In this document: positions 556-58,301 of the stretch, piece after piece
Layout: every line of letters starts with the position of its first letter
Numbering within the stretch: the first letter of the stretch is position 1
Source of the DNA: a virus
Length of the DNA stretch: 58,902 nt
Direction: 5' to 3' (one strand)
IMG/VR virus record: IMGVR_UViG_3300005096_000055
Coordinates: 1 to 58,902 of that record
Made by a program: the position numbers and the translations under genes
The notes under the pieces: model-generated
What the model saw: the letters and a program-made list of their open reading frames with translations, nothing else
What the model was told of the DNA's origin: nothing
The model's database searches: none

Positions 556-870
556 ATGGAAGGCTACGAGGGGATCCCAGGGTTCGTGATCGAGGGTGAT
601 GACGGCAAGGTCATCGTTGGGAACCCCGGTCAGCAAGCAGGCGGCCGGCGCGTGTATAGGGATGGTACGCAGCAGGATCGAAGTGAAGTGAAGAGGAAGG
701 GTGGAACGCATGACTATCTCTTGCGAGCCCCCAAGGGTCTTTGGGTTGCTTTCAAGCGGAAGTGCGACAACGAGGGCCTGACGATACGAGGGGCGCTGCT
801 GTTCCTTGTCAAGGACTGGACCATGGGCAAGATCGAGATTGAGGACCTTGAAACCCGTATGAACCTGTGA
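556..870 (+). CDS. Small DNA-binding-like protein (ribbon-helix-helix-like C-terminus)
   Basis: 104 residues from an ATG with a strong AAGGAGG site. The first half is glycine-rich and charged. The second half (LRAPKGLWVAFKRKCDNEGL and the following helix ending in DWTMGKIEI) looks like the strand-helix-helix pattern of phage ribbon-helix-helix regulators. It is the only plus-strand gene in the left 11 kb and reads away from the operator-like region, which suits an early regulator. The assignment is by pattern only; a search should confirm it. Confidence 0.7.
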   Translation: MEGYEGIPGFVIEGDDGKVIVGNPGQQAGGRRVYRDGTQQDRSEVKRKGGTHDYLLRAPKGLWVAFKRKCDNEGLTIRGALLFLVKDWTMGKIEIEDLETRMNL

Positions 871-944
871 GAAGGTGGTAGCGGCGGAAAGGGAGTTCCC
901 GGTAAGAGGTTCGGTCGGTTGCGGCACCGGACCCACGGCGCGAA

Positions 945-988
945 GAAACCCCCGAGCTCGCGTAAGTGATGCGTAGCTCGGGGGTTTC
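945..988. terminator. Bidirectional hairpin terminator
   Basis: Perfect 14-bp stem GAAACCCCCGAGCT / AGCTCGGGGGTTTC with a 16-base loop, between convergent genes. The terminal T tract is short on both strands (TTTC). Confidence 0.8.
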
Positions 989-1005
989 GTATTGGGTGTT
1001 GCTGC

Positions 1006-1248
1006 CTACAGCATCTTCGGCCGATGCCTGATGGCCCACTTTCGAATCGTCTTCCAGTACCAGAGCGGCTGTGGTCGGCCACCTGGCATGTCTAGGTCGG
1101 GTGGAGGGAACCTGGACGATTCACGCTTCCTCCACGAATGTACGGTGTTGAGCTGAACGCCGAAGTACTCAGCGATCATTGGCATGTTCAGTACGTCTGA
1201 GTCCTTGTACTTGGACTTCGAGGGGTTGATGCCAGGTATCACAGGCAT
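1006..1248 (-). CDS. Helix-turn-helix DNA-binding protein (excisionase/MerR-like)
   Basis: 80 residues. The core LNMPMIAEYFGVQLNTVHSW is a classic HTH (helix, AEYFGV turn, recognition helix NTVHSWRKR), followed by FPPPDLDMPGG and PLWYWKTIRKWA, the wing and C-terminal pattern of small winged HTH or excisionase-like phage proteins. The chosen ATG overlaps the stop of the upstream gene by 10 bases and has GAGAGG upstream; a longer in-frame start would overlap that gene deeply. Likely a transcriptional regulator. With no integrase present, a true excisionase role is doubtful. Confidence 0.75.
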   Translation of the reverse strand: MPVIPGINPSKSKYKDSDVLNMPMIAEYFGVQLNTVHSWRKRESSRFPPPDLDMPGGRPQPLWYWKTIRKWAIRHRPKML

Positions 1249-1472
1249 ATGCGCCTCTCGAAGTTTGCCCACACGTTGTCGAGCCACCACTGTCTTTGGG
1301 TGACCATCACTCCGTGCTCGAGCGACCTCTCCCATTGGATCTCCCAATAGTCGAAGCCCTGCCCAAGGCTCTCGAGGTACTCGTCACGCTCCCAATCGTG
1401 GATCTGGCCTTCGAACATCTTCTCGACCATCTTCTCGATGACGGCTTCCTCGTTTGCGTCTCGTTCGCTCAT
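1239..1472 (-). CDS. Small acidic phage protein of unknown function
   Basis: 77 residues, rich in Glu, Asp and Trp (WERDEYLESL, YWEIQWERSLEHG, QRQWWLDNVWANFERR). No domain recognised. It starts at an ATG 11 bases after AAAGGGGTGAG, the recurring leader of this arm, and is translationally coupled to the HTH gene downstream. Confidence 0.75.
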   Translation of the reverse strand: MSERDANEEAVIEKMVEKMFEGQIHDWERDEYLESLGQGFDYWEIQWERSLEHGVMVTQRQWWLDNVWANFERRICL

Positions 1473-1474
1473 TT

Positions 1475-1486
1475 CTCACCCCTTTC
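1475..1486 (-). promoter_or_regulatory. Leader element: GAAAGGGGTGAG ribosome-binding site
   Basis: Copy of the conserved leader 2 bases upstream of the start at 1472, with GTGAG where most copies read GTAAG. The usual short hairpin is only a weak GGT/ACC pairing here. Confidence 0.7.
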
Positions 1487-1489
1487 TGG

Positions 1490-1561
1490 TTACGAATCAC
1501 ACCTTTGTAATTCTTGGACTAGTAATACACACACGGATGTGGTTGAATCCACAGTGAGCAT
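1490..1561 (-). CDS. Possible 23-residue leader-defined peptide
   Basis: A tiny frame (MLTVDSTTSVCVLLVQELQRCDS) starting 4 bases after AAGGGGTAATC, a recognisable copy of the arm's leader. Its stop overlaps the start region of the leader for the next gene. Too short to judge by composition; the only support is the leader and its position. Confidence 0.4.
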   Translation of the reverse strand: MLTVDSTTSVCVLLVQELQRCDS

Positions 1562-1634
1562 GTGATTACCCCTTCATGTTCGGTCGGATCGAGTGGGGGA
1601 GCCATTGAGGGTGCGATGAACCTCTGGCTCCCCC
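1562..1634 (-). promoter_or_regulatory. Leader cassette with GC-rich hairpin
   Basis: Leader GAAGGGGTAA (1566-1575) preceded by a 10-bp perfect hairpin GGGGGAGCCA/TGGCTCCCCC (1595-1604, 1625-1634). Confidence 0.6.
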
Positions 1635-1655
1635 CTCGACTCTTCTCGACTCTCC

Positions 1656-1880
1656 TCAGTCGTTGATGACGAATCCGATCAATCGAACCTCCTCATCACC
1701 TTCGATGTTCGGGATCGAGTCTGCTATGAGCTCCTCGATCTTGGGGAACGGGTCCGTGCAACTCCCGGCTGCTGAATACAGCTTGTTCGACCACCTCTTG
1801 GGTATCTCGAACTCGAGGTGCAACACGGACACGCTTGGGAAGTCTGGCTTCCCTTTCGTTGGTGGCAAGAGCCCACTCAA
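1656..1880 (-). CDS. Small phage protein of unknown function
   Basis: 74 residues, coupled to the upstream gene by a TTGA overlap (TTG start inside the previous TGA stop) with GAGGG nearby. The sequence alternates hydrophobic strands (SVSVLHLEFEIP) and acidic stretches (KIEELIADSIPNIEGDEE). No family recognised. The TTG start lowers confidence in the exact N-terminus. Confidence 0.65.
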   Translation of the reverse strand: MSGLLPPTKGKPDFPSVSVLHLEFEIPKRWSNKLYSAAGSCTDPFPKIEELIADSIPNIEGDEEVRLIGFVIND

Positions 1881-2101
1881 AGAAGACCCTCACGGATCTC
1901 GTTATCTGCGAGCTTGTCAGTATCGATTGGCGGAAGCCTCAGTGCTATTGCACCAAGGAACCGCGCAACCATTGCTGCTTCTATGAGGTTGTCAGCTTCA
2001 TAGACGCCCAACGTAGGCCCGTCAACATTGATCTCATATGAGGTTTTATCCTCGTCTGATACCGAGTCAACGATGACGCTTATCACGTACTTCGTTGCCA
2101 T
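1877..2101 (-). CDS. Small phage protein of unknown function
   Basis: 74 residues beginning MATKYVISVIVDSV; the chosen ATG follows the arm's leader (GAAAGGGGTGAGA), so five upstream in-frame codons are excluded. The pattern is a beta-hairpin start, an acidic turn (DSVSDEDKTS) and a helix (NLIEAAMVARFLGAIAL). No domain recognised. Confidence 0.75.
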   Translation of the reverse strand: MATKYVISVIVDSVSDEDKTSYEINVDGPTLGVYEADNLIEAAMVARFLGAIALRLPPIDTDKLADNEIREGLL

Positions 2102-2219
2102 TCTCACCCCTTTCACGTACGGTATCTCCGCACTCTTGGAGGATCATCGGACTGTTGTGTTGTCAATCAGCCTGTTACCAGACCCAACTTGTTGTAGTTG
2201 GTTCCGATGATCCCCCAAG
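2102..2219 (-). promoter_or_regulatory. Leader cassette with long nested hairpin
   Basis: Leader GAAAGGGGTGAGA (2102-2114). Upstream lies a 17-base inverted repeat (2135-2151 with 2203-2219, one mismatch) centred on GGATCATCGGA/TCCGATGATCC, with an inner CCAACT/AGTTGG hairpin. Confidence 0.7.
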
Positions 2220-2263
2220 GCTACGGAGAACGTAGCCCGTGGATTTGTGGTCCACTGTTGTTG

Positions 2264-2659
2264 TCAGCCTTCCCACCCGATTCGGTGGACTACACGGTCG
2301 TTGAGGTAGACCTTCGTCTTGTCAAGGTACCTTGAGAGAGCTTCGTTCACCTCATCTTGGGTGAAGTCAGCATTGCCGTCCTTCCACAACACGAAGACGT
2401 TTGCACCTTGGTGCGGTTGGACGGTGACACTCTCGACCTCAGTTCCAACCATCTTGATGTCGATGGTTGCCTTCAACGTCCATTCACTCGGCGCTTCTTC
2501 GGGACTTCGGATCTCGAGCCCAACGTCAGTGATGACCTGAGCTACTTCCTCTATGGTCCCTGCATCCCACTCGATCCCGTCAAGGATTCCGTGGATGCGC
2601 TCGATGGCTCTTGCATAGTCCAAGGCGGATCCCAAGGACGTATCTTCTGCTTCTGCCAT
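2264..2659 (-). CDS. Acidic phage protein of unknown function
   Basis: 131 residues starting MAEAEDTSLGSALDYARAI directly after a GAAAGGGGTAAGCAA leader. The N-terminal half is helical (AIERIHGILDGIEW, TIEEVAQVITDVGLEI); the C-terminal half has beta strands (TLKATIDIKMVGTEVESVTV, ANVFVLWKDG). No known domain recognised. A single gene in its own cassette. Confidence 0.75.
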   Translation of the reverse strand: MAEAEDTSLGSALDYARAIERIHGILDGIEWDAGTIEEVAQVITDVGLEIRSPEEAPSEWTLKATIDIKMVGTEVESVTVQPHQGANVFVLWKDGNADFTQDEVNEALSRYLDKTKVYLNDRVVHRIGWEG

Positions 2660-2735
2660 TTGCTTACCCCTTTCGTTCTGGTAACGCTTGTCGCTACCCC
2701 ACAACAAACCTACCCGAATGGATAGGTTTGTTGGT
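2660..2735 (-). promoter_or_regulatory. Leader cassette with two hairpins
   Basis: Leader GAAAGGGGTAAG (2663-2674). Short hairpin 2680-2698 (GGTA-CG pairing CG-TACC) and a perfect 10-bp hairpin AACAAACCTA/TAGGTTTGTT (2703-2712, 2723-2732). Confidence 0.75.
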
Positions 2736-2758
2736 GGCTAGGTACAAGCTCTCGCTCG

Positions 2759-2968
2759 TTACAGGTGCAGCACCTTCCCTGCAACCTTCTTGCCGATCAC
2801 GATGAACTCGCTTTCGGGTCCAGGTGGCATTGGAGATGCGTACCCGCAATCGTCGCACTGGAGTTTCTCGATCCTCTCGATGGCGCCGAAGGCCGTCAGA
2901 ACCACGAGCTCACTGAGGAACCCAAGTTCTTCTGCCTTGGCGTAATCGATCGTGTAGAGATCATTCAT
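2759..2968 (-). CDS. Small protein with a CxxC motif
   Basis: 69 residues, coupled to the upstream gene by an 8-base overlap (ATGAATGA). A helical first half (YAKAEELGFLSELVVLTAFG) is followed by one CDDC pair and a proline turn (SPMPPGPESEF). With only two cysteines it could bind metal as a dimer or be a degenerate zinc ribbon. Function unknown. Confidence 0.7.
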   Translation of the reverse strand: MNDLYTIDYAKAEELGFLSELVVLTAFGAIERIEKLQCDDCGYASPMPPGPESEFIVIGKKVAGKVLHL

Positions 2969-3293
2969 GGGCGTTCGCTATTACTTCGAGTATCGAAGCG
3001 TTGCAGCGAAGCTCGCCGTCTTTGGCGTAGGTTCGTGCTCGCGCTCGGTACTCTGGATCGAGCATCACCACGAACTTCGAACGCTCTTTGCCCACGATGA
3101 CACCCTGCATTCCTACAAGGTACTTCGGGCGGACGTTTGCGAGTCGCACGATCGTGCCTGGCTTGAGGGAAAGCGCTAGTCGGTCCGTGAGGACCCCCTG
3201 TCGCTTCTTCAGTGCCGTGTAGATCGTGTCGAAGTCATCGTCAACCGCTCCGTTGATGATGGCATCGTAGACCTGCTGTGCATTTGCACTCAT
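2961..3293 (-). CDS. Phage protein with a KOW-like segment
   Basis: 110 residues. The middle (KPGTIVRLANVRPKYLVGMQ and on to VIVGKERSKFVVMLD) has the glycine-turn beta pattern of KOW/SH3-like RNA- or protein-binding modules; the N-terminus is helical. It starts right after a standard leader at 3297-3308 and heads a two-gene coupled pair. The KOW-like reading is a pattern judgement. Confidence 0.7.
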   Translation of the reverse strand: MSANAQQVYDAIINGAVDDDFDTIYTALKKRQGVLTDRLALSLKPGTIVRLANVRPKYLVGMQGVIVGKERSKFVVMLDPEYRARARTYAKDGELRCNASILEVIANAHE

Positions 3294-3360
3294 TTGCTTA
3301 CCCCTTTCTGGTAGCTCGTTGCTACCCCACGACTCTCGAGGGGTTCTCGAGAGTCGGTGG
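3294..3360 (-). promoter_or_regulatory. Leader cassette with two perfect hairpins
   Basis: Leader GAAAGGGGTAAG (3297-3308); short hairpin GGTAGC/GCTACC (3310-3326); long hairpin CGACTCTCGAG/CTCGAGAGTCG (3330-3340, 3346-3356). CTAGTTACGAGC is then duplicated at 3361-3372 and 3381-3392, the second copy carrying the stop of the next gene. Confidence 0.8.
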
Positions 3361-3384
3361 CTAGTTACGAGCCTGTTTGGCTAG

Positions 3385-3678
3385 TTACGAGCGGCCTGTT
3401 GGAACCGCCGGCGAGATGATCCGAGCCTTCCACCTCTTGTGGCGGAACTCAGCTACCTCTTGCATGGATGGTTCGTTGATGCTCCAGGACAACTGCGCCC
3501 TTTCGGTATCTCCGTTGAGCTCGATGCCACATGATGGGCACCGTGCCCATGCATAGAAGCCTTCGGAGATCTCAAGTTCATATTCGCCAGGTGCCACCAT
3601 ATGGGTGGTGCCTTCTACGAAGCTGTACTCGTAGCAGTTCTCGCAGATCTGGTACATGCCTTGGATTCCCTTAGGCAT
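3385..3678 (-). CDS. Zinc-ribbon protein
   Basis: 97 residues. CENC near residue 12 and CPSC near residue 50 form the two knuckles of a rubredoxin-like zinc ribbon. The rest is hydrophilic, with a basic C-terminus (RHKRWKARII). The start overlaps the upstream stop by 8 bases; the much longer in-frame extension upstream is a shadow of that gene. Probably binds nucleic acid or protein; the specific role is unknown. Confidence 0.7.
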   Translation of the reverse strand: MPKGIQGMYQICENCYEYSFVEGTTHMVAPGEYELEISEGFYAWARCPSCGIELNGDTERAQLSWSINEPSMQEVAEFRHKRWKARIISPAVPTGRS

Positions 3679-3925
3679 TGTCAAGCCAATCGAGCCAGCT
3701 CTGGAAGAACTTTTCGACTGCCTCGATTGCCATGTCCTCTCGCACCTTGTCGCGACCCCACGAGTACTCTCCCGTGTCTTCGCGGTCAGGTTGCCAGATG
3801 TTTTCGTCAGTCTCGACGAACATCCACGGCGCTTCTGAGAAGTCCACCTGTGGTTCATCGACGAGTTCTCCAGTTTCCGTGTCGATCGACACGGCTACCG
3901 GTAGGTACACGACTACTTTCGCCAT
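3671..3925 (-). CDS. Small acidic phage protein
   Basis: 84 residues starting MAKVVVYLPVAVSIDTETGE after a leader at 3931-3942, then acidic and tryptophan-rich (SEAPWMFVETDENIWQPDRED), ending in a helix (AIEAVEKFFQSWLDWLDNA). No domain recognised. First gene of a coupled pair with the zinc-ribbon gene. Confidence 0.75.
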   Translation of the reverse strand: MAKVVVYLPVAVSIDTETGELVDEPQVDFSEAPWMFVETDENIWQPDREDTGEYSWGRDKVREDMAIEAVEKFFQSWLDWLDNA

Positions 3926-3987
3926 GTTGCTTACCCCTTTTCTAGTAGCTGTCGCTACTCCCCGAGGTTCTGTGGAACCCCGAGGGC
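3926..3987 (-). promoter_or_regulatory. Leader cassette
   Basis: Leader GAAAAGGGGTAAG with one extra A; short hairpin AGTAGC/GCTACT (3944-3959, 4-base loop); a weaker GGTTC/GAACC hairpin near 3966-3979. Confidence 0.7.
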
Positions 3988-3990
3988 TAG

Positions 3991-4191
3991 TTACAGCTCT
4001 GCGAGCAGCTCGTGATACATGTCGAGAGCACACGCTGCGCAAAGGCGCATGGTTCGAGCCGTGTAGCCTTCACCTGCTTTTGCAGTCAGCTTCATCCTTG
4101 CATAGCCTTTGGGACATCCATCGCAATGGTTGTCACCGGTAGGCCATACCCTGGGGACTCCATGAGAGTTGTAATCAACCTCAACGCTCAT
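3991..4191 (-). CDS. Small zinc-finger-like protein
   Basis: 66 residues with CDGC (23-26) and CAAC (about 51-54), spaced like a small treble-clef or zinc-ribbon fold. The start is coupled to the upstream gene by ATGA. Function unknown. Confidence 0.7.
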   Translation of the reverse strand: MSVEVDYNSHGVPRVWPTGDNHCDGCPKGYARMKLTAKAGEGYTARTMRLCAACALDMYHELLAEL

Positions 4192-4787
4192 TCGCTGCTC
4201 CCCCTCTCATGTATCCACACAGCCGCCTGGAAGTCCCTAGGAGCCATTTCGAACAGCTCTGCAACCTCTCGGTAGCAACTTGCCACCATGGCGTACACAC
4301 CGACCCTCTGGAGGTCGTGAATATCCGCCCAGCGCTTCCCAGTAGCCGCCCGCAACGCCCAGCGGTCTATCACGACTGCATTGGGGTTGCCGGCGATCGC
4401 CCTGTAGAACTCTCGTATCTTGTGCGAGGGCCCGTCGGGCTCAGGAAAGGTGGAGATGATCGAGCCACCTGCAAGGATCCTCTTGACTCGTGCAACGGCA
4501 TGCGAGAACCCTCGAGGGTTTCCAGCAAGTGCCATTTCGGCCATTCGGATGTTGTTAGACCATGATTGGTTTGGACTCATTGCAGCAATCACGCCTGCGG
4601 CTTGATGCTTTGTGACTCCGTACTTTCGCGCCAACCTTCTTGCAAGGTTCTCGGCTCCGGTGTACCAACCCATCCCTGCAATCACCTCGTAGGTTGTCAA
4701 GGAGTTCCCGATATTGGTCAGGTTCTCAATGATCCTTGAGCGATGCTCGGGAAGGTTGTGGACACCTCTTGGTATCGTCGCCTTCAT
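4188..4787 (-). CDS. Conserved phage protein, possibly helix-hairpin-helix glycosylase-like
   Basis: 199 residues from an ATG right after the leader. Segments such as GVIAAMSPNQSWSNNIRMAE, FYRAIAGNPNAVVIDRWALR and MAPRDFQAAVWIHERG are very like a conserved family common in actinophages. The all-helical layout with a late V-V-I-D-R-W stretch recalls HhH-GPD DNA glycosylases, but I cannot see a convincing catalytic Lys/Asp pair, so this is only a fold-level suggestion. First gene of a coupled pair. Confidence 0.75.
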   Translation of the reverse strand: MKATIPRGVHNLPEHRSRIIENLTNIGNSLTTYEVIAGMGWYTGAENLARRLARKYGVTKHQAAGVIAAMSPNQSWSNNIRMAEMALAGNPRGFSHAVARVKRILAGGSIISTFPEPDGPSHKIREFYRAIAGNPNAVVIDRWALRAATGKRWADIHDLQRVGVYAMVASCYREVAELFEMAPRDFQAAVWIHERGSSE

Positions 4788-4850
4788 TCTTACCCCTTTT
4801 CTGATGTCCTCGTAGACACCGCCCACCCTTGGAGCTTCCCCCAAGGGTGA
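4788..4850 (-). promoter_or_regulatory. Leader cassette
   Basis: Leader GAAAAGGGGTAAG; short hairpin GATGTC/GACACC (4803-4820); perfect 9-bp hairpin CACCCTTGG/CCAAGGGTG (4824-4832, 4841-4849). Confidence 0.75.
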
Positions 4851-4865
4851 TCGCTGGTTACCAGC

Positions 4866-5459
4866 TCATACGTGGCAGTCGAGGCTAACCACGATTGCAT
4901 CAGGCCGAGCTACGCGAAGGTCATTCCATGCCTTCTCGTAACCCTCTGCTTTGTCCTCCTCGGTCTTGCCGTCCTCATCAGGAATTGAGGAACCGAACCA
5001 ACCCATGCGGGCTCGTTCGATCCATTCTCCGTCTGGGTTGACGAATGCAGTCATCGTGTAGTCGCTATGGACTTCTGATAACCGACAGCGGTTTCGCCCA
5101 AGTGACGTGTAGCGATCATCTGAAGGCCACACGGAACTCTCACCAGTCCCATCACAGCCATTGCAGCCGTTGCAACCGTCGTACCAGGCTTGCCCGAACT
5201 CCTCGAGTCCTCGTGGACGTTCGCCGGTACCGTTGCAAATGCGACAGAGCTCCTTGAGATCGAGCCAATCCAGCCCGCGGATACTGCCATCCCATCTGCC
5301 TCCAACAACCCACCAATCCCATCGCGAACCTTCGCTGAACGCTTCATCGTTCTCGTCGAAGGGCGCCATCAGTCTGGTGACCTCTTCCAGGACATCCTTC
5401 TTCTGTGAGAGATTGTCGAACCTCTCTGGTAGCACAACGGCTACCTTGAAGTGTGTCAT
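4866..5459 (-). CDS. DnaJ-type zinc-motif phage protein
   Basis: 197 residues starting MTHFKVAVVLPERFDNLSQK. A tryptophan-rich motif (RWDWWVVGGRWDG) is followed by CRICNGTGE and CNGCNGCDGTGE, paired CxxCxGxG repeats like the DnaJ zinc-binding region. Proteins with this WWxxGGRWxG plus DnaJ-zinc layout are common in actinophages and uncharacterised. There is no J domain, so it is not a DnaJ chaperone. Confidence 0.8.
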   Translation of the reverse strand: MTHFKVAVVLPERFDNLSQKKDVLEEVTRLMAPFDENDEAFSEGSRWDWWVVGGRWDGSIRGLDWLDLKELCRICNGTGERPRGLEEFGQAWYDGCNGCNGCDGTGESSVWPSDDRYTSLGRNRCRLSEVHSDYTMTAFVNPDGEWIERARMGWFGSSIPDEDGKTEEDKAEGYEKAWNDLRVARPDAIVVSLDCHV

Positions 5460-5525
5460 GTCTCTTACCCCTTTCTCGTGTGGTCCATCCACACTCCGCG
5501 AAGTTCCTTGGAACTCCACGGGCTG
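5460..5525 (-). promoter_or_regulatory. Leader cassette
   Basis: Leader GAAAGGGGTAAG; perfect 6-bp hairpin GTGTGG/CCACAC (5478-5494); AGTTCC/GGAACT hairpin (5502-5515). Confidence 0.75.
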
Positions 5526-5526
5526 T

Positions 5527-5709
5527 TTACGAACCTTTGCTCCTGCGTTCCTTGAGGATCTCCTTGGCTATCTCGAGCCTCTCTTCATCCTCTTTGGCGT
5601 TCAGCCACGGCAACGTCTCAAGCGCTTTCACCATGTTGGAAAGCTCCCAGCTCGGCCGGCGACTCCACATCTTCTTGTGATAGTCGCGCGACATTGACTG
5701 AGCTACCAT
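5527..5709 (-). CDS. Small basic phage protein
   Basis: 60 residues, mostly helical with a charged C-terminus (NAKEDEERLEIAKEILKERR). The start overlaps the previous stop by 7 bases (ATGGTAG). No family recognised. Confidence 0.65.
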   Translation of the reverse strand: MVAQSMSRDYHKKMWSRRPSWELSNMVKALETLPWLNAKEDEERLEIAKEILKERRSKGS

Positions 5710-6008
5710 GAGGTATCGGCCATCCGATACGACTGGTGTATGTCGTCGTAGAGCCGTCGTGCATCAGACCATGCATATTCACCGTAGAAGGTCTTGACCC
5801 TCTTTGCGGACTTCTGCGAGATCAGATGGGTTGCATAGACCCTGTGCATTCCATCGGTGTATTCGTAACCACCAACGGTGTCGCGCATGTCGGCCACTTC
5901 ATGTACGAGCTCGATTGCATGATCCTCTGTGTCGCCTCCGACCCAGAACACCATGCTCTTAACCACTCGCCATGAACCAACCTTCGCATATCTCTGCGAT
6001 GCTCTCAT
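5703..6008 (-). CDS. Phage protein of unknown function
   Basis: 101 residues with a standard leader 5' of its ATG. Beta-rich N-terminus (WRVVKSMVFWVGGDTEDH), then a helix and a tyrosine-rich tail (YGEYAWSDARRLYDDIHQSY). No domain recognised. Heads a coupled pair. Confidence 0.75.
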   Translation of the reverse strand: MRASQRYAKVGSWRVVKSMVFWVGGDTEDHAIELVHEVADMRDTVGGYEYTDGMHRVYATHLISQKSAKRVKTFYGEYAWSDARRLYDDIHQSYRMADTSW

Positions 6009-6080
6009 GTTCTCTTACCCCTTTCTTGGTACCTTGTCAGTACCCCACCACCTTCGACCTGAGTGCGTCGAAAGTGGGTG
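6009..6080 (-). promoter_or_regulatory. Leader cassette
   Basis: Leader GAAAGGGGTAAGAG; GGTAC/GTACC hairpin (6028-6044); 11-base hairpin CCACCTTCGAC with GTCGAAAGTGG (6048-6058, 6067-6077, one mismatch). Beyond it CTAGTTCGTG is tandemly duplicated (6093-6102, 6104-6113). Confidence 0.75.
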
Positions 6081-6103
6081 GCTAGTGACAAGCTAGTTCG
6101 TGC

Positions 6104-6652
6104 CTAGTTCGTGATTGGGCGGTCCTTGATTTGATTCCGCGGATCATCGAGGCTCCTGAAGAACTCCTCGATGGGTTCTGCATAGGCGCTGTTGGTGATC
6201 GCCAGCTTCCTTTCGTACTCCACTTCGGCTTCATTGAGTTCCCGGAAGGCTCTTCCGGTTCCACCAGGATCGTACCTAGACGTGAACCTCCGCACCTTCG
6301 GGAGCCCCTGTACGTCCCTCTCGGTGCGATTGACAACGTAGAACCCGTTATCGCCTGGGTCGGTTCGCACCAACTGCAGCGATACCTCGAGGTTGTGTTT
6401 GTCCATCACGCCTAGTGGGACGTTCACGATTCCAACCGAGAGTGTTTCGAACCTCTCGCGGCCATCGAAGAACTCACAGACGATTTGCGCGAACCTCGAA
6501 GCTTCGTACTCCTGGTCGGCGCGAACCTTCCGCCTATCCAGCTCCTTCAGGAAGGCATAGACCGATTCCGGTCCCCCATTCCAGTGAAGGTATATGGCTG
6601 GTGAGAACCTCATCTCGCCATTTGTGAAGATCACGTTGGCTCGATTTCCCAT
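6104..6652 (-). CDS. Conserved phage/plasmid protein (MGNRANVIFT family)
   Basis: 182 residues. The N-terminus MGNRANVIFTNGEMRFSPAI followed by YLHWNGGPESVYAFL is highly characteristic of a small family found in phages and mobile elements, whose function I do not know. It ends in a helical charged region (ELNEAEVEYERKLAI). A single gene in its cassette, starting 2 bases after the leader. Confidence 0.8.
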   Translation of the reverse strand: MGNRANVIFTNGEMRFSPAIYLHWNGGPESVYAFLKELDRRKVRADQEYEASRFAQIVCEFFDGRERFETLSVGIVNVPLGVMDKHNLEVSLQLVRTDPGDNGFYVVNRTERDVQGLPKVRRFTSRYDPGGTGRAFRELNEAEVEYERKLAITNSAYAEPIEEFFRSLDDPRNQIKDRPITN

Positions 6653-6725
6653 TTGCTTACCCCTTTCCGTAGGTGTCCATCACCTACACGCCCTTGCAGG
6701 AACTACACAGCTCCTGCAAGGTCGT
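6653..6725 (-). promoter_or_regulatory. Leader cassette
   Basis: Leader GAAAGGGGTAAG; perfect 7-bp hairpin GTAGGTG/CACCTAC (6669-6687); perfect 10-bp hairpin CCTTGCAGGA/TCCTGCAAGG (6692-6701, 6712-6721). Confidence 0.8.
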
Positions 6726-6741
6726 CTAGTTGTCGAACGGT

Positions 6742-7566
6742 TCAGAACAGCTTCATGTGAAGCCGGCCGAACTTGACGAGACCCTCGAGGGTTTCCACAA
6801 CACCTTTGACAGTGTTCGGGTTTTCAAAACCACCTTCGCTCTTGACGGTGATCACGGAACCTTCATCGTCCTCATCGGAACCATCGTAGATCCCAATCAT
6901 GGCTCCCTCAAAGTCTGTGAGCCACACGTATAGGTCCTCGTAGCCGTAGCCTTCCTGCCTGTTGAAGTGAACGGCTAGGGCTTGCAGCCCACCACCTAGC
7001 TCTTCAACGAAGGTCTTCGTGTTCACAGGTAGCTTCCCTCGAGCCCTCGACTCTTCAATGGCTTTCGCCAACTCGCCGAAGTGCTTTGAGCGATGGCTAC
7101 GCGCAAGTTCACGACCCTTTGCATCGCGTTCCTCCCTTGCAACTTTCTCCACTGCTAGATGGAGGTTGAAGGGATCCTCGCCAACTTCAAGGGCGATTCT
7201 CGCAGCCCATTCAGTGTCGTAGTAGAAACCCATTGAGGGTTCCGTAGACAGTCCTGAGTAGGCTGTGAAGTACTTCGTGTACGCCGCTTCGCCTCTCCAG
7301 AGCGCTGCGAGTTTTCGGTAGATATGGCTGTTGCCGGACACGCGTGTTTCGCTTGTCCTATGCATTGCCGCAATCTCACCTGTGGAAAGCGGAATTGCTT
7401 CGTCGAGGTTCACGAAAGCCATGTAGGAGCTCGGATGAGCCCTATCCTCGGCCTTCTTGGAAACCTCATGGATCACTTCCACGATTGCACGACCGTCTGC
7501 AGAGAAATAGAGGGTTTTGAACCCCAAATCAGTCTGCATGTCTTTGTGCATACCTCTCGCTTTCAT
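6742..7566 (-). CDS. Phage protein of unknown function, 274 residues
   Basis: One of the largest genes of the left arm. An N-terminal beta region (TLYFSADGRAIVEVIHEVSK), a central helical region rich in Lys and Arg (EKVAREERDAKGRELARSHR), and an acidic beta C-terminus (DGSDEDDEGSVITVKSEGG). No motif identifies a function. The start is set by the leader two bases upstream. Confidence 0.75.
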   Translation of the reverse strand: MKARGMHKDMQTDLGFKTLYFSADGRAIVEVIHEVSKKAEDRAHPSSYMAFVNLDEAIPLSTGEIAAMHRTSETRVSGNSHIYRKLAALWRGEAAYTKYFTAYSGLSTEPSMGFYYDTEWAARIALEVGEDPFNLHLAVEKVAREERDAKGRELARSHRSKHFGELAKAIEESRARGKLPVNTKTFVEELGGGLQALAVHFNRQEGYGYEDLYVWLTDFEGAMIGIYDGSDEDDEGSVITVKSEGGFENPNTVKGVVETLEGLVKFGRLHMKLF

Positions 7567-7632
7567 CTCTTACCCCTTTCCGTAGCGGTTGTCGCTACTC
7601 CACAGGGACCTCGTTTGAAGTCCCTGCGGGCT
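7567..7632 (-). promoter_or_regulatory. Leader cassette
   Basis: Leader GAAAGGGGTAAGAG; perfect 6-bp hairpin GTAGCG/CGCTAC (7582-7598); 7-bp hairpin CAGGGAC/GTCCCTG (7603-7609, 7620-7626). Confidence 0.8.
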
Positions 7633-7634
7633 AG

Positions 7635-7844
7635 TTACAACCTGTCTCGTTTGGCCTGGCGACGTAGCTCATCTAAGTCGTCAATCCAGATGCGCTTTCG
7701 GTAACCCGTCCTGTCCGTGTAGACCTTTACGTAAAGGTCGGGATCGATCAGGAGGTTCTCGTGGATGTGTGAGCGAACTTTCTCAATTTCTGATAGCAGC
7801 TCGCTCACAGTTCCCTCGGAGCTTTCGTAAACCACTTCGTACAT
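7635..7844 (-). CDS. Small phage protein
   Basis: 69 residues, helix then charged strands (SELLSEIEKVRSHIHENLLI, WIDDLDELRRQAKRDRL). Starts 3 bases after the upstream stop with GAAGGTGTAAG, a diverged leader formed by the end of that gene. Function unknown. Confidence 0.65.
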   Translation of the reverse strand: MYEVVYESSEGTVSELLSEIEKVRSHIHENLLIDPDLYVKVYTDRTGYRKRIWIDDLDELRRQAKRDRL

Positions 7845-7847
7845 GGC

Positions 7848-8102
7848 TTACACCTTCTCCGCAAACATGTTCCCGGAAGCCAGTCGCGGCTTCACATAGT
7901 CCTCGAAGGTCCAGCCGGCATCGTCGTAACCCGCTATGGTCACCACGCTCTTGCCGTCACCTTCCGTGTAGCCTCCGGTGACTATTGCATTCCTTGGTAG
8001 GTATGCTGCAACCCTCTTCTTGGAGATGCCGTTGCCGCGAACCTGCGCTATCCAGCTCGAGTTTCGCGAAGACCCATGACCCTTTGTCTGTTGGTCATTC
8101 AT
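7848..8102 (-). CDS. Small phage protein
   Basis: 84 residues with a standard leader. Polar N-terminus, then a beta-rich segment (AAYLPRNAIVTGGYTEGDG, SVVTIAGYDDAGWTFEDYV). No domain recognised. Confidence 0.7.
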   Translation of the reverse strand: MNDQQTKGHGSSRNSSWIAQVRGNGISKKRVAAYLPRNAIVTGGYTEGDGKSVVTIAGYDDAGWTFEDYVKPRLASGNMFAEKV

Positions 8103-8182
8103 CTACTTACCCCTTTCTCATCTAGTGCAGTTTGCCTACACCCCACCGGACTCGAGCGCTTTCGCCCAAGTCCGAGTGGCTG
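8103..8182 (-). promoter_or_regulatory. Leader cassette
   Basis: Leader GAAAGGGGTAAGT; a weak, bulged short hairpin (about 8121-8137); longer hairpin CGGACT/AGTCCG with flanking pairs (8143-8179). Confidence 0.6.
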
Positions 8183-8201
8183 TTTGCAACCTCTCAGTCG
8201 C

Positions 8202-8762
8202 TCAGTCGATCCGTGAATGCCCGTATACCTTCACCTTGGTTTCGCCCAGCTCCTCGAGCCCTTCGCGCAAGCTCTTGGCCATTGCATAGGCTGCAGCTTC
8301 CTTTCGCGCCATGCTTTGGGAGCTTCTACCAACCGGTAGGTTGATTCGCATCCCTCCACCGTAGGTAGATGATGCACCGAGGTTCTTCTTAGCCCAATGG
8401 GCGAAAGAAGAGTTCCCAGGTCGCGTAGTCAGCCATGCGAAGCCACAGACCCCCTCAGGCACGTTCCAGCTTTGCACAACCTCGCTCGAGTCATCGAACA
8501 GGGTTGCATGTTGCTGAACCACCATTGGGGTTGGTTTCGCATCCTCGAAGGCCTTGATGCCAACCTCGGTCGCTTTCGCCCAGAGTTTGGCATAGGCTTC
8601 GTAGCGCTTTGCGCGCTTTGCGGCTTGCTCGTCGCGGTTCGCAATGAACTTGTCGCGAGCTTCTGTGGCGTGTTGGACGCAGTATTTCGACTTCGATGCA
8701 GAGTACGATGACTTTGCAGCAGTCGTACATGCTTCCCACGCGCATTGTCCGTAGGTTTCCAT
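8202..8762 (-). CDS. Zinc-finger-like phage protein
   Basis: 186 residues. N-terminal Cys7, Cys12, Cys28 and His31 could form a C2CH-type zinc site, followed by a long basic helix (ANRDEQAAKRAKRYEAYAKL) and a C-terminal globular part (GVCGFAWLTTRPGNSSFAHW). The gene at 10803-11330 has a similar CxxxxC...CxxH site and Lys-rich helix, suggesting distant paralogy. Role unknown, perhaps nucleic-acid binding. Confidence 0.7.
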   Translation of the reverse strand: METYGQCAWEACTTAAKSSYSASKSKYCVQHATEARDKFIANRDEQAAKRAKRYEAYAKLWAKATEVGIKAFEDAKPTPMVVQQHATLFDDSSEVVQSWNVPEGVCGFAWLTTRPGNSSFAHWAKKNLGASSTYGGGMRINLPVGRSSQSMARKEAAAYAMAKSLREGLEELGETKVKVYGHSRID

Positions 8763-8832
8763 CGTTCTTACCCCTTCTCGTAAAGTCGTTCGACCCTACG
8801 CGTAGGTTCCCCGATCTCTCGAGGAACCCTCG
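8763..8832 (-). promoter_or_regulatory. Leader cassette
   Basis: Leader GAGAAGGGGTAAG; 9-bp short hairpin GTAAAGTCG/CGACCCTAC (8780-8799); on the transcript its two unlike pairs are G-U wobbles. Outer hairpin GGTTCC/GGAACC (8805-8828). Confidence 0.75.
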
Positions 8833-8844
8833 CCTAGTTTCGCA

Positions 8845-9117
8845 CTAGTGGTTTCGGCCTCCGCATATGCTGCATCCAGCCTCTTTGCGGTCCTTTGTGT
8901 CTAGGTGATCCTGTAGCTCGTCGATGAGGGTTTGCACATCCTCATCAGTCAAGAGCAGGCCTTTGTAGGAACTCGTGTCGACCAGTATCAGCCGCGTAAA
9001 CTCAGCGGCAGAGGTTTCCAAGACGTTCACCCACGCTGTGGGAGAGGTTTTGGATCCCTCTAGCTGGATCGTGGTGGTTCTCAAGTGGCCTTCGAAGCTC
9101 ACTTCTACCTTCGCCAT
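8845..9117 (-). CDS. Small phage protein with C-terminal CxxC
   Basis: 90 residues starting MAKVEVSFEGHLRTTTIQLE. The chosen ATG is 7 bases after GAAGGGG; a second ATG two codons upstream is closer to that site than usual. Beta-rich, a helix (DEDVQTLIDELQDHLD), then a C-terminal CSICGG. Function unknown. Confidence 0.7.
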   Translation of the reverse strand: MAKVEVSFEGHLRTTTIQLEGSKTSPTAWVNVLETSAAEFTRLILVDTSSYKGLLLTDEDVQTLIDELQDHLDTKDRKEAGCSICGGRNH

Positions 9118-9192
9118 TGTCATACCCCTTCTCGCAGTCTCGTTTGAGCCTACGCGCCCTTCCATGAATCCTTGTGGACCCATGGAAGGTCG
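9118..9192 (-). promoter_or_regulatory. Leader cassette
   Basis: Leader GAGAAGGGGTAT; short hairpin CGCAGTCTC with GAGCCTACG (9133-9154, one mismatch); 9-bp hairpin CCTTCCATG/CATGGAAGG (9158-9166, 9181-9189). Confidence 0.7.
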
Positions 9193-9204
9193 TCTAGGTT
9201 CACC

Positions 9205-9543
9205 CTAGCGATAGTCGCTTTGGTCGGCGGTTCTTGTGATCTTGACGTCGCTTGCAGTAACTTCCACGCGACTTGTGCGGCTATCGCCACCAGTTGCCCA
9301 GAACCGTCTTTGCACGCTCCCGGTAACCCATATGGCTGCTCCGCGAAGCCCACCAGTTTGGATAACCTCAACGAGCTCGTCATCAGGATCCCACAACACT
9401 ACGGGGATCACATCGATCCTCCTACGCGGTTCGCTGGACCTTACGGTTACCAGCAACCTCACAAGTTGTGAGCCGGATTCGAAGAACTTCAGCTCCGGTT
9501 CCGCGGCTAGTTTCCCAGCCAGTACGGTTAGATTCAAGTCCAT
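9205..9543 (-). CDS. ssb: Single-stranded DNA-binding protein
   Basis: 112 residues with the OB-fold pattern of phage SSBs: LNLTVLAGKLAAEPELKFF, LVRLLVTVRSSEPRRRIDVI, PVVLWDPDD, then GAAIWVTGSVQRRFW and RVEVTASDVKI. It coats single strands during replication and recombination, and would serve the Sak4-like ATPase, exonuclease and helicase encoded at the right end. It lacks the acidic C-terminal tail of cellular SSBs. Starts 3 bases after a standard leader. Confidence 0.85.
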   Translation of the reverse strand: MDLNLTVLAGKLAAEPELKFFESGSQLVRLLVTVRSSEPRRRIDVIPVVLWDPDDELVEVIQTGGLRGAAIWVTGSVQRRFWATGGDSRTSRVEVTASDVKITRTADQSDYR

Positions 9544-9620
9544 TCGCTTACCCCTTCTCGCAAGTCACTTCGTACTCACGCGCCCTTGCACGAACCCTAT
9601 GAAGTTCGTGCAAGGTCGCC
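9544..9620 (-). promoter_or_regulatory. Leader cassette
   Basis: Leader GAGAAGGGGTAAGCG; 7-bp short hairpin CGCAAGT/ACTCACG with two wobble pairs (9559-9580); perfect 12-bp hairpin CCTTGCACGAAC/GTTCGTGCAAGG (9584-9595, 9604-9615). Confidence 0.8.
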
Positions 9621-9775
9621 TGGGAACGAGACTAGATTCGTCAATCCCAAGTTATTCAGTTGTCAGCTTTCGCCACTATCGCTTTCGCATTTGCTTACCC
9701 CTTTCGTATCTCTTTAGAGCCTACGCGCCTCCCCACCAGGCCTACGCACCTTCGCGTAGCCCCGATGGGGAGTCG
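9621..9775 (-). promoter_or_regulatory. Orphan leader cassette with almost no gene
   Basis: A complete cassette (leader GAAAGGGGTAAG, short hairpin CTCT/AGAG at 9710-9719, nested hairpin CTCCCCA/TGGGGAG at 9729-9772 with inner CTACGC/GCGTAG) but its ATG (9690) opens only a 4-codon frame, MRKR. The roughly 60 bases after it hold no frame. Most likely the remnant of a deleted gene, or an untranslated RNA. Confidence 0.6.
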
Positions 9776-9785
9776 TCTAGGTTCG

Positions 9786-9902
9786 CTAGAATCCCATGTA
9801 GCTCTGTGCAACGTCCTCGACGTTTGACCAAAGCTCGATCATCCCGGCGCCTAGGGAGGACCCATAGACGCTGAGCACGAACCCCAGCAACGTACCAATC
9901 AC
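9786..9902 (-). CDS. Tiny membrane protein
   Basis: 38 residues, coupled to the upstream gene by a GTGA overlap. The N-terminus MIGTLLGFVLSVYGSSLGAG is a plausible single membrane segment, followed by an acidic tail (MIELWSNVEDVAQ). One of several tiny genes in this genome. Similar in size to the membrane peptide at 10564-10689, with no clear sequence match. Confidence 0.6.
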   Translation of the reverse strand: MIGTLLGFVLSVYGSSLGAGMIELWSNVEDVAQSYMGF

Positions 9903-10201
9903 GTTCGCACCAAGTACTCGTGCGCCGGCGAGACCTTTGCAAAGTACTCACCAACGTCTGTACCTATTGCAAGCTCGGCCTCGATGACCCCACCTACAAC
10001 AGAGTCGCTTGTGGGGTTGGCAAGGCCGTTTGCGCTCTGTAGGTACTTTCGCGCGACTCTCAGGTCCGTAAAGAACCTGCCATCTGCGCGCGTCCATATC
10101 GGCTGTTTGGAACCATCGGGTAGGTATTCCCAATCCTGTATCAGGATCACGAAGACGTTTCCTGCGAGTTGCCCCACAGCCCAGAGCCTTAGGGAAACCA
10201 T
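9899..10201 (-). CDS. Phage protein of unknown function
   Basis: 100 residues. Hydrophobic N-terminus (LWAVGQLAGNVFVILIQDWE) then WTRADGRFFTDLRVARKYL, a pattern common in small phage proteins. The ATG overlaps the previous stop by one base (TAATG). No family recognised. Middle gene of a three-gene coupled unit. Confidence 0.7.
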   Translation of the reverse strand: MVSLRLWAVGQLAGNVFVILIQDWEYLPDGSKQPIWTRADGRFFTDLRVARKYLQSANGLANPTSDSVVGGVIEAELAIGTDVGEYFAKVSPAHEYLVRT

Positions 10202-10449
10202 TACAGCCTCCCAGCAGCTTCATGGGTTTCAGCAGCCTTGGCGGCTTGCTCGAACATCATGGAGAGCTCAAGCAGCTTTTCACGGCTTGCCTGGAACTCC
10301 ACACGAGTGCTTCCACCCTTGGCGAATGCCTCCACGGTCACGGTAGCTTCAACGCTACCCCTGACGATCACGTAGGCTTCCACCAACGTCTCGCCATCCA
10401 TGAAGGTCAATTCAACCTCTGGTGGGTATGCCATGAATATCGGCATCAT
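10201..10449 (-). CDS. Small phage protein
   Basis: 82 residues, beta-rich (VELTFMDGETLVEAYVIVRG) with a C-terminal helix (SREKLLELSMMFEQAAKAAE). Two tandem ATGs follow the leader; the first is used here. Confidence 0.7.
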   Translation of the reverse strand: MMPIFMAYPPEVELTFMDGETLVEAYVIVRGSVEATVTVEAFAKGGSTRVEFQASREKLLELSMMFEQAAKAAETHEAAGRL

Positions 10450-10560
10450 TCTCTTACCCCTTCCGGTTCTTGAGAACCTCTCAAGATCCCCGCAACCCTC
10501 GAGGATCTTTCCTCAAGGATTCTGGGGACCCCATGAACCCTCTCGAGTCCACGGGGAAGT
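10450..10560 (-). promoter_or_regulatory. Leader cassette
   Basis: Leader GGAAGGGGTAAG; perfect hairpin GGTTCT/AGAACC (10465-10478, 2-base loop); AAGATCC/GGATCTT hairpin (10483-10509). Confidence 0.7.
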
Positions 10561-10563
10561 TCC

Positions 10564-10689
10564 CTACAAGTTTGCCGCGACCTTCGCTAGTTCCCCTGAG
10601 GCCCATTGGGCCATTTGAAGAACTAGGAACGTACCTATGGCGATTGCCACTAGGTATTTCGCGATTGCTTCGAGCGCACATCGGCTCAT
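10564..10689 (-). CDS. Tiny membrane protein
   Basis: 41 residues, one base after the leader GAAAGGGGTAAGC. AIAKYLVAIAIGTFLVLQMA forms one membrane helix; the rest is short and polar. The leader makes it a convincing gene despite its size. Function unknown. Confidence 0.7.
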   Translation of the reverse strand: MSRCALEAIAKYLVAIAIGTFLVLQMAQWASGELAKVAANL

Positions 10690-10765
10690 TGCTTACCCCT
10701 TTCGTTGGTCGATAGGTTGGTACCTACCCCTAGCCCTACCATGAATCGGTAGAGCTAGGGCTAGG
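10690..10765 (-). promoter_or_regulatory. Leader cassette
   Basis: Leader GAAAGGGGTAAGC; hairpin TAGGT/ACCTA (10713-10726); bulged 12-bp hairpin CCTAGCC-CTACC with GGTAG-GGCTAGG (10729-10765). Confidence 0.75.
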
Positions 10766-10802
10766 TGCAAGAGCTCTTGTGTGAACCCTTGCACCCTATC
10801 GC

Positions 10803-11330
10803 TTACCCCTTAAAGGTGACAGTTGCCAATTCGTCACCGAGTCCTTGGCTTGAGAGGTTGGCGACCGTATCGGTAGCTATCACCTCTGCTGTCCATCCTT
10901 CATCGGTCGCGACATCGGAATTGGCCAACACACCAGCGAACGCAACAGCATTCGCGAATGAGTCGAACCCCTGCAACAAGGTCCCTCCATACTCGTGGTC
11001 GTTTGAGTCCACGTAGTAATTGACCATTTCCGCTTTCACATGGTACGCGAACCCACTACGGCCGTCAGTAATCCTGACGAACGCCGTAGCATTGTCGGTC
11101 GCATCCGTTGCGTTCGCCTTGGTTGCCGCTTCCCTCACGAGGTTGCGGTAGCCCTTGCGCCGTTTTTCGTTGGCCGCTGCTTTGTGGGCGCGACACAACG
11201 TAGCCTTCCCGACTACTTCGACGTTGCAAGACTCATCAGCGCACACACGAGTAGTTGAGGCTACGGTAGCCTTACTCGCTGCATCGCGTTCGGTCGCTGC
11301 ACTGTCAATCGCTTCTAGGTTGATAGGCAT
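10803..11330 (-). CDS. Zinc-finger-like phage protein
   Basis: 175 residues, Ala- and Thr-rich. Cys30, Cys35, Cys46 and His49 form a C2CH-like site, followed by KAAANEKRRKGYRNLVREAA. The C-terminal half is beta-rich (GFAYHVKAEMVNYYVDSNDH). It resembles the gene at 8202-8762 in layout. It ends exactly over another leader copy (AAGGGGTAAGCG at 10802-10814) that has ATA where a start would be, another probable orphan. Confidence 0.7.
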   Translation of the reverse strand: MPINLEAIDSAATERDAASKATVASTTRVCADESCNVEVVGKATLCRAHKAAANEKRRKGYRNLVREAATKANATDATDNATAFVRITDGRSGFAYHVKAEMVNYYVDSNDHEYGGTLLQGFDSFANAVAFAGVLANSDVATDEGWTAEVIATDTVANLSSQGLGDELATVTFKG

Positions 11331-11443
11331 TACTTACCCCTTCCGGCACCTTGCCTCAAGCACTTCTCGAGGACTTACATGTACCCTTCGACCTACCAAC
11401 CTATGCCCTAGAAAGGGCTATCGGTCGATAGGTTCAAGGGTAC
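11331..11443 (-). promoter_or_regulatory. Leader plus multi-tier hairpin at the head of the left arm
   Basis: Leader GGAAGGGGTAAG and a weak GGC/GCC hairpin, then a three-tier inverted repeat: GTACCCTT (11381-11388) with AAGGGTAC (11436-11443), CGACC/GGTCG (11389-11393, 11423-11427) and GCCCT/AGGGC (11405-11409, 11414-11418). First cassette of the left-arm transcript. Confidence 0.65.
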
Positions 11444-12358
11444 CTATCGACACCGAACACGCTAGACGCGCTCAGTGCCGATAGGTACGGGGTAAGGGGT
11501 AGGTCACTATGTAGACTGACGATACCTACTTGCCATCATCCACATGGACTTACGGCGTCTAACCTCGTATCGTTGTAAATGCCCTAGCGCTATCCCGATT
11601 CAAGACTTGCACCTATCACAAGGTGCCTAGTGCCATAGCAGGGACTTACCCATCACTGTCGATAGTTCATCACGGCGGCATCACCCCTCTAACGATATCC
11701 ACCTAGGTCGATATCGGCAATTCCGTTCCCATCATGGCGTAGTTGACACTAGGCCATGGGGGTATCGGTATCGGGGTACTTGAGTCGAACACGCTAGGAC
11801 CGATAGTCAGTATCGGTAGGGCTCTCATCAGTCAGGTTGTCAAGGTGCAGTGCACCCCTCGAGCGTAGGTACTTGATACGACTCCTGCGATTCACGCAAG
11901 CCCACTGAAGGGCTAGGCCGTGAGTCATCCGATGAGCGATAGTGCCTAGGCTCTATCCATCGGTCGGCTTTCCGTATCGACTTAGGCTATCAAGGTGCCT
12001 GTACCGCTAGGCGGCACAAGGGCAGTATGGCACAGATCTAGCGATATGGTCAATACCCATAGTCAAGAATTCCCTACAACCCTTGCTATGACTGACTTAC
12101 CAACCAACTGCAATCACCCTAGAGCGCCACAATGGCCCTAAATCGGGGGGTTCAGCGTATGTGCCTAGTGGTTGGCTACAACCTCGCCACGAAGCGCTTA
12201 AATCGCCGTGTATGGCGTGTGTGCCAGGTGCTATCAACTAGGGGTAAGCGAGGTTAGTTACCTTTCATCACTATAACTGGGCTCTATTTGGGCTACTTGA
12301 CCTTAACTGCTGTTATTGGAAGGACCTGGTAAATACCGAACATATGTTCGACTCACCC
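11444..12358. other. Gene-free region dense in CGATA and CTAG words
   Basis: No credible frame on either strand. I count about 18 CGATA/TATCG occurrences over 11421-12475 (about 2 expected by chance) and 14 CTAG tetramers between 11408 and 12243 (about 3 expected). Clusters include 11421-11490, 11690-11715, 11761-11820 and 11936-12050. It lies between the leftward arm and rightward gene 12687, the usual place for a replication origin, an operator array or a partition-like site. Confidence 0.65.
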
Positions 12359-12479
12359 TTACCCCTACCACCATAGGGGGAACTATTCCTTAGTCCCTTA
12401 CTCAACTACTAATCAATAGATCCATAGTTGAGTAGTGAGCAACTAAGGAATTGACTTAACACTATGGCGATAGGGGTAA
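12359..12479. repeat. 121-bp nested inverted repeat
   Basis: Outer arms 12359-12375 and 12463-12479 (15 of 17 pair, core TTACCCCTA/TAGGGGTAA), middle arms ATTCCTTAGT/ACTAAGGAAT (12385-12394, 12442-12451), inner arms ACTCAACTA/TAGTTGAGT (12400-12408, 12425-12433). The inside is AT-richer than the surroundings. Candidate origin or cruciform; a large RNA hairpin is the alternative. Confidence 0.75.
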
Positions 12480-12552
12480 CCCCCGTTACCAGTTTGTATA
12501 GTGATGTGTGAAGCCCCGCTCACAAATTTGACCCCCAATTTTAACCCCCTTG

Positions 12553-12605
12553 ATATCCGTCCATCCAGCCCCACGAATCAGGCAAATGTATATATCCGTC
12601 CATCC
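12553..12605. repeat. Direct repeat of 14 bp, operator-like
   Basis: ATATCCGTCCATCC occurs at 12553-12566 and 12592-12605, 39 bases apart, just upstream of the promoter for the gene at 12687. It shares GATATCC with the sites at 337-355 and 447-459. Confidence 0.7.
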
Positions 12606-12624
12606 GTTACCTCGAAACTGGGGG

Positions 12625-12652: not shown

Positions 12653-12686
12653 GGTGAAGGGAAACCGCATCTACCAAGGAGGATGA

Positions 12687-58276: not shown

Positions 58277-58301
58277 TCGTACCCCTTTGCGATGTCAGTC
58301 A

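Follow-up and report, generated by a model that had tools for sequence, protein, structure and literature searches.

A left-arm phage operon with 17 RNA leaders that each form two exclusive folds, candidate intercistronic processing sites

We analysed the complete IMG/VR virus record IMGVR_UViG_3300005096_000055, 58,902 bases long and called the window below, whose left arm carries an array of small genes preceded by RNA leaders of a single plan. The window encodes a terminase, a portal, a tape measure protein, four transfer RNAs (tRNAs), a helicase and two RNA ligases. Its portal has a distant likeness (25% identity) to actinophage portals (Thermobifida P318, Arthrobacter Faja), and the sole nearby relative that we found is an 8.5-kb fragment (L009) with a 91% identical portal, the array lying outside its coverage. 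Searches with the left-arm proteins gave no relatives in IMG/VR or in GTDB genomes, and none among phages beyond DUF7178 homologues and two weak matches. The only Rfam 15 families above gathering threshold in the window are tRNAs.

The array genes stand singly or in tightly packed or overlapping groups. Since no leftward sigma-70-like promoter occurs between 1200 and 11400 and no leftward terminator at any of the leaders, the genes are likely read as one leftward polycistronic transcript of about 10 kb. Upstream of the array lies a stretch of about 1.35 kb (11340-12685, minus strand) that lacks convincing genes and contains long inverted repeats. It holds the only leftward sigma-70-like match (12053-12024), and we presume it to be the promoter region of the operon. 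The inverted repeats lie at 12385-12451, at 11440-11488 and at 12359-12376 with 12462-12479; in the last, the minus strand pairs a GGTAGGGGTAAG with its own complement. The stretch is possibly an origin or an operon control region.

The 17 leaders lie on the minus strand of 2.1–11.45 kb. Each consists of an arm A of 17 nucleotides (nt), often with CTAG inside, a hairpin B of 11–17 base pairs (bp) with a mostly 4-nt loop, an arm C, often with GTAG inside, an arm D, the string (G)AAAGGGGTAAG with its Shine-Dalgarno (SD) core, and the start codon. The initial annotation had described about 17 leaders with a shared core before genes, each with a proximal hairpin whose letters change while its pairing is kept and, further upstream, a second GC-rich hairpin that differs from copy to copy. 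We recover both hairpins (the proximal one involving D, the distal one being B) as described, at 17 of 18 SD sites. Beyond that description, A and C, which flank B, are complementary in strict register, so that A, B and C together form a long interrupted hairpin (S1). D, in turn, can pair with the first nucleotides of C, which yields a small C·D hairpin with B intact (S2), ending 3–12 nt before the SD core AGGGG. S1 and S2 exclude each other because both need the same 4–9 nt of C. In the isolated leader S1 is the more stable fold in 17/17 copies, by 1.1–10.1 kcal/mol, and, C being shared, the D hairpin should therefore be favoured in most copies only after A has been removed or blocked. The SD core is open in both folds. 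By where the mismatches of S1 fall, most leaders can be assigned to three types, each with a nearly constant set of mismatches: type I has C·U, A·G and G·G, type II has A·G and G·G, and type III has C·A, G·G and A·G. Across the helix positions of types I-III, 110 of 126 are Watson-Crick, while the letters of the stems vary.

We name each cassette by its lowest window position and give, for each, its span, its parts, the open reading frame (ORF) that it precedes and its E-value (E) under the covariance model (CM) described below; all are on the minus strand. Type I comprises 2663 (2663-2750; A 2734-2750, B 2702-2733, C-D 2672-2701, SD 2663-2674; ORF 2264-2659; E=1.8e-7), 3297 (3297-3373; A 3357-3373, B 3330-3356, C-D 3306-3329, SD 3297-3308; ORF 2961-3293; E=1.7e-7), 6014 (6014-6094; A 6078-6094, B 6048-6077, C-D 6023-6047, SD 6014-6025; ORF 5703-6008; E=3.7e-3) and 8106 (8106-8192; A 8176-8192, B 8146-8175, C-D 8115-8145, SD 8106-8117; ORF 7848-8102; E=6.2e-6). 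Type II comprises four copies from which the CM was seeded, namely 6656 (6656-6738; A 6722-6738, B 6692-6721, C-D 6665-6691, SD 6656-6667; ORF 6104-6652), 8767 (8767-8846; A 8830-8846, B 8804-8829, C-D 8776-8803, SD 8767-8778; ORF 8202-8762), 9121 (9121-9206; A 9190-9206, B 9158-9189, C-D 9130-9157, SD 9121-9132; ORF 8845-9117) and 9547 (9547-9632; A 9616-9632, B 9584-9615, C-D 9556-9583, SD 9547-9558; SSB-like ORF 9205-9543, SSB PF00436), together with 9694 (9694-9789; A 9773-9789, B 9729-9772, C-D 9703-9728, SD 9694-9705; 4-codon ORF only; E=1e-8). Type III is made up of 3930 (3930-4002; A 3986-4002, B 3960-3985, C-D 3939-3959, SD 3930-3941; ORF 3671-3925; E=5.9e-5), 5464 (5464-5538; A 5522-5538, B 5496-5521, C-D 5473-5495, SD 5464-5475; ORF 4866-5459; E=5.7e-4) and 7569 (7569-7646; A 7630-7646, B 7600-7629, C-D 7578-7599, SD 7569-7580; ORF 6742-7566; E=1.2e-7). 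The other cassettes are 2103 (2103-2236; A 2220-2236, B 2135-2219, C-D 2112-2134, SD 2103-2114; ORF 1877-2101), whose B has a 17-bp stem and a branched loop of 51 nt, 4789 (4789-4867; A 4851-4867, B 4823-4850, C-D 4798-4822, SD 4789-4800; ORF 4188-4787; E=3.4e-5), 10453 (10453-10538; A 10522-10538, B 10494-10521, C-D 10462-10493, SD 10453-10464; ORF 10201-10449; weak, E=0.53), 10692 (10692-10777; A 10761-10777, B 10728-10760, C-D 10701-10727, SD 10692-10703; ORF 10564-10689 of 41 amino acids; E=4.9e-3) and the first of the operon, the atypical 11333 (11333-11450; A 11434-11450, B 11391-11433, C-D 11342-11390, SD 11333-11344; ORF 10803-11330; weak and partial, E=0.14).

The core GAAAGGGGTAAG, allowing up to three mismatches, occurs 59 times in the window, compared with 31.8 expected (standard deviation 5.6), and all nine of its exact copies are minus-strand and fall between 2663 and 10703. 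Eighteen sites of this type stand ahead of minus-strand start codons from 1472 to 11330, with a spacing of 10–14 nt between the first A of AGGGG and the start codon in nearly every case. The site that has no hairpins is the copy GAAAGGGGTGAG at 1475-1486 (minus strand, before ORF 1239-1472), which has neither a recognisable A:C stem nor a D hairpin. The usual 3' end of 16S ribosomal RNA (rRNA) is UCUUUCCUC, with which AGAAAGGGG can pair over nine positions, one G·U included; AGAAAGGGG is thus an extended SD sequence. Elsewhere, AGGGGTA sites at 58286, 54585 and 51369 (minus strand) precede right-arm genes at 58276, 54574 and 51358 without a hairpin leader, and an SD-like TTAAGGGGTAAG at 10802-10813, at the end of ORF 10803-11330, lacks a good start and such hairpins.

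That the pairing itself is selected emerges from several tests. As a null we swapped arms between copies in 200,000 permutations, which is fair because the register of A and C is fixed by B alone. Own arms A and C form 9.5 Watson-Crick pairs of 16 and swapped arms 5.0 (P<5e-6, 0/200,000 permutations as good), and the D hairpin has a mean energy of -8.6 kcal/mol as against -4.2 with its halves swapped (P<5e-6). Single columns of the A:C stem covary: position 3 is paired in 17/17 copies by three pair types (null 9.6), and position 11 in 14/17 copies by six (null 7.4). The flanks of 47 other hairpins of at least 9 bp elsewhere in the genome form 6.4 pairs of 16, about chance level, compared with about 11 for the cassettes. 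Folding z-scores for 15 leaders range from -4.4 to -6.1, values that no shuffle reached. The CM, built from 6656, 8767, 9121 and 9547, recovers 12 further copies in the window, ten at E 1e-8 to 5e-3 in addition to 11333 and 10453, and gives nothing better than E=2.5 in 401 kb of other phage DNA. All its matches are within the array, bar a weak one at 56977 (E 0.076), and three plus-strand matches are the same palindromes read in reverse. With the register chosen from Watson-Crick pairs alone, G·U outnumbers A·C on the transcribed strand by 20 to 1 in B and by 6 to 0 in D (26:1 together, P=4e-7). As the excess identifies the transcribed strand as the selected one, it points to selection on B and D at the mRNA strand. 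The swap tests, column covariation, CM and strand bias thus support the proposal, made in the initial annotation, of a selected RNA structure. Paralogous genes as the origin of the cassette copies were ruled out, none being found.

We looked for leaders of similar shape elsewhere with a scanner that ignores sequence and asks for the structure, any SD and a start codon. In the window it returned 13 sites, all of them cassettes, with zero on the plus strand and essentially zero in shuffles. Its thresholds were picked after the cassettes had been seen, and the comparison across genomes therefore weighs more than the count of sites. The scanner found zero sites in the eight actinophages TM4, Anaya, AnnaSerena, P318, DalanDe, Faja, Dagobah and Hyperion (for most, a stretch of at most 50 kb). 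From 1.44 Mb of fetched loci it returned four, of which three belong to L085 (IMGVR_UViG_3300012952_000007), an IMG/VR phage of 39.6 kb that had entered the sample solely through carrying the SD string; one of these three sits inside a small ORF and is not a leader. In a looser scan of 2.55 Mb, the window and L085 again stand out. Pattern matches in two further loci (L130 and L133) were judged to be chance, and a locus with a 43% homologue of an L085 gene (L141) has an ordinary GGAGG site and no leader.

L085 has no convincing protein relation to the window. Its array (860-4240, plus strand) contains at least five cistron units with a long interrupted hairpin before a start codon and, mostly, GAAAGGGGTA; such leaders precede 1609, 1876, 2404, 2856 and 4224. 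The two phages thus share interrupted hairpins between cistrons, the GAAAGGGGTA ribosome site and an adjoining gene-poor stretch, beside which the array starts in both (about 1.35 kb in the window, about 0.9 kb in L085). They differ in their proteins, in the core sequence and in the D alternative, since an exclusive C:D hairpin is present at L085 leaders 1876 and 2404 and is clear in only two or three copies.

Among known systems, the cassettes appear by analogy to be functionally nearest to the RNase III sites of T7, membership of that class hinging on cleavage. When folded, the T7 leaders of 0.3, 0.5, 1 and 1.3 likewise show an upper stem with a short loop, an internal loop and a lower stem, and in this comparison the cassettes form the same kind of irregular hairpin between cistrons. 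The T7 early operon also has one such hairpin per transcription unit, including the first gene, adjoining the SD of the next gene. It has about five copies, as opposed to 17 here, and the window cassettes add a built-in alternative C:D hairpin and a shared extended SD; any cleavage of them would be by analogy. The initial annotation had compared the layout to the start-associated sequence (SAS) and extended SAS (ESAS) elements of cluster K mycobacteriophages. In these phages, and in cluster EF Microbacterium phages, many non-structural genes are preceded by a conserved extended ribosome site, upstream of which lies an inverted repeat (cluster K) or a weakly conserved element (EF) (PMC3203893, PMC7302621). 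The ESAS arms are 17-bp inverted repeats conserved in primary sequence, with little support for RNA pairing (PMC3203893), and they carry SigA-like -35/-10 promoter hexamers (PMC11373665). The likeness holds for the layout, including the position directly before the start codons of many non-structural genes, and goes no further: the 13-bp SAS near the start codon is GGGATAGGAGCCC where the window core is GAAAGGGGTAAG, the ESAS letters are conserved without covariation whereas the window arms vary with pairing retained, and the promoter hexamers have no counterpart in the array. We therefore ruled out cluster K ESAS as the identity of the cassettes; in TM4, Anaya and AnnaSerena, neither scanner nor CM found any.

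Our preferred reading, held tentatively and with a little less than even confidence, is that the cassettes act as intercistronic leaders of one leftward operon, for mRNA processing and insulation. A, B and C would fold at once during transcription into S1. Host RNase III would then act on S1 as it does at the early-gene sites of T7; we found no RNase III gene in the window. If S1 were cut near the internal loop that separates B from C, hairpin B would form the 3' end of the upstream message and C would be released from A, so that C could pair with D. The downstream message would then begin with a small hairpin that stops 3–12 nt short of the extended SD, capping the new 5' end, and hairpin and strong SD might together stabilise the mRNA and promote initiation. 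In nearly all copies at most 4 nt separate hairpin B from the 5' arm of D (for 9121 and 9694 this counts the outer part of the D stem, beyond a bulge), which fits a cut near the B/C junction. The stabilising leaders of ompA, papA, aprE and ermC have in common that the 5' end is occluded, the SD strong, or both (PMC3997798), and the small hairpin that would stand next to a strong SD at the processed 5' end here is comparable; unlike them, the window hairpin would arise only upon processing and recurs across the operon. Cleavage of an mRNA leader by RNase III is on record for an actinobacterium (PMC4681348). Nearly invariant internal-loop mismatches amid varying stems and the similar arrangement in the unrelated L085 also support processing. 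Several points weigh against it. S1 has symmetric internal loops, unlike T7. The fit is less regular for copies 11333, 10453 and 10692. In the lower A:C stem, the counts of G-U and A-C show no strand bias (15 and 17 overall, 5 and 4 at helix positions), so that this test is neutral on RNA there. Finally, no orthologous leaders were found in which conservation between relatives could be tested. We file the cassettes as candidate intercistronic processing leaders, with the built-in refolding step as the new part.

The main rival, which we hold to be unlikely, is a ribosome-driven coupling switch, in which a ribosome ending the upstream gene would cover A and let C pair with D, A:C forming otherwise and the SD being exposed or hidden accordingly; whether one gene is translated would so determine the leader of the following one. 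Competition of S1 and S2 for C suits such a switch, as does the upstream stop codon, which ends 5–28 nt before B, in or near A, at 11/17 cassettes (12/17 counting the uncertain ORF ahead of 9694 as a gene; three have as this stop a TAA inside A). The stop is nevertheless 42–44 nt before B at 10692, 10453 and 2103, too distant to cover A, while 9547 is preceded only by a 4-codon ORF and 11333 by no gene, and all five keep their A:C stems. The SD core, moreover, is accessible in either fold. Some minimum-energy folds had hinted at its sequestration by the 3' arm of D, but this pairing does not exceed shuffles (2/17 at ≤0.1). On the same ground we rejected ermC-type translational attenuators, which need an SD-sequestering fold. 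Coordinated translation, one role offered in the initial annotation, is possible, though sequestration of the ribosome site is not above chance.

The near-invariant mismatches and core letters within otherwise variable stems, and a common SD that exceeds the needed length, could also mean that the cassettes are bound by an RNA-binding regulator of phage or host origin, which would read the internal loop (AACUAG opposite GUAG) together with the extended SD and switch the whole set at once. We consider this distinctly unlikely: an RNase could use the same loop, L085 does not have the same core sequence, and no candidate regulator was identified. Strong two-hairpin structures repeated and transcribed in a single operon might alternatively act on elongation, as HK022 put-like pause or antitermination RNA, or be unusual terminators between genes. 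Put RNAs are known from few copies, which weighs against a reading that needs 17 per operon, and the transcribed strand has no T tract after B, so that we find this explanation improbable; intrinsic terminators, in which such a tract follows a GC-rich hairpin, were ruled out. Most improbable to us are sites that act as DNA, whether for recombination, gene-cassette shuffling or cruciforms, or palindromes kept by template-switch repair. Cassette 9694, backed by a 4-codon ORF only, and the A arms duplicated near 3297 and 6014 lend anecdotal support to the shuffling proposed in the initial annotation; against a role as DNA stand the 26:1 preference for G-U over A-C on the mRNA strand in B and D, the persistence of conserved mismatches, the fixed position at start codons and the absence of paralogous genes.

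The 17 differing solutions of one two-fold RNA in a single genome form a natural mutagenesis set, with which one can directly test whether splitting an operon into capped single messages also occurs in phages other than the T7 group, and what role the unexplained start-associated elements of other phages have. That multi-copy bistable leaders, defined by architecture and setting the processing and translation of a whole operon, have arisen or spread in unrelated phages as a new class of phage RNA device seems to us somewhat doubtful. Such a class would be recognised by shape rather than sequence, would therefore be missed by ordinary motif and Rfam searches, and may be commoner than known.

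Some smaller features of the genome deserve mention. At 9676-9702, the complete cassette 9694 precedes just the 4-codon ORF (MRKR stop), with the next cassette close behind, and is possibly a leader left behind after gene loss. Beside cassette 3297, arm A is duplicated (3357-3396, CTCGTAACTAGCC twice), and likewise beside cassette 6014 (6078-6115, several CTAG repeats), which suggests local duplication at the arms. The left-arm protein at 4866-5459 has no Pfam match; by eye, its repeated CNGC/CDGTG motifs resemble a DnaJ zinc finger. The two RNA ligases, an RtcB-type and an RNA_ligase (PF09414) protein, are encoded at 20138-21778 and 52347-53000. The terminase large subunit (22720-25236, 838 amino acids) is about 43% identical to that of methanogen phage psiM2 over its C-terminal half; the N-terminal part matches proteins that are annotated as helicases in large mycobacteriophages.

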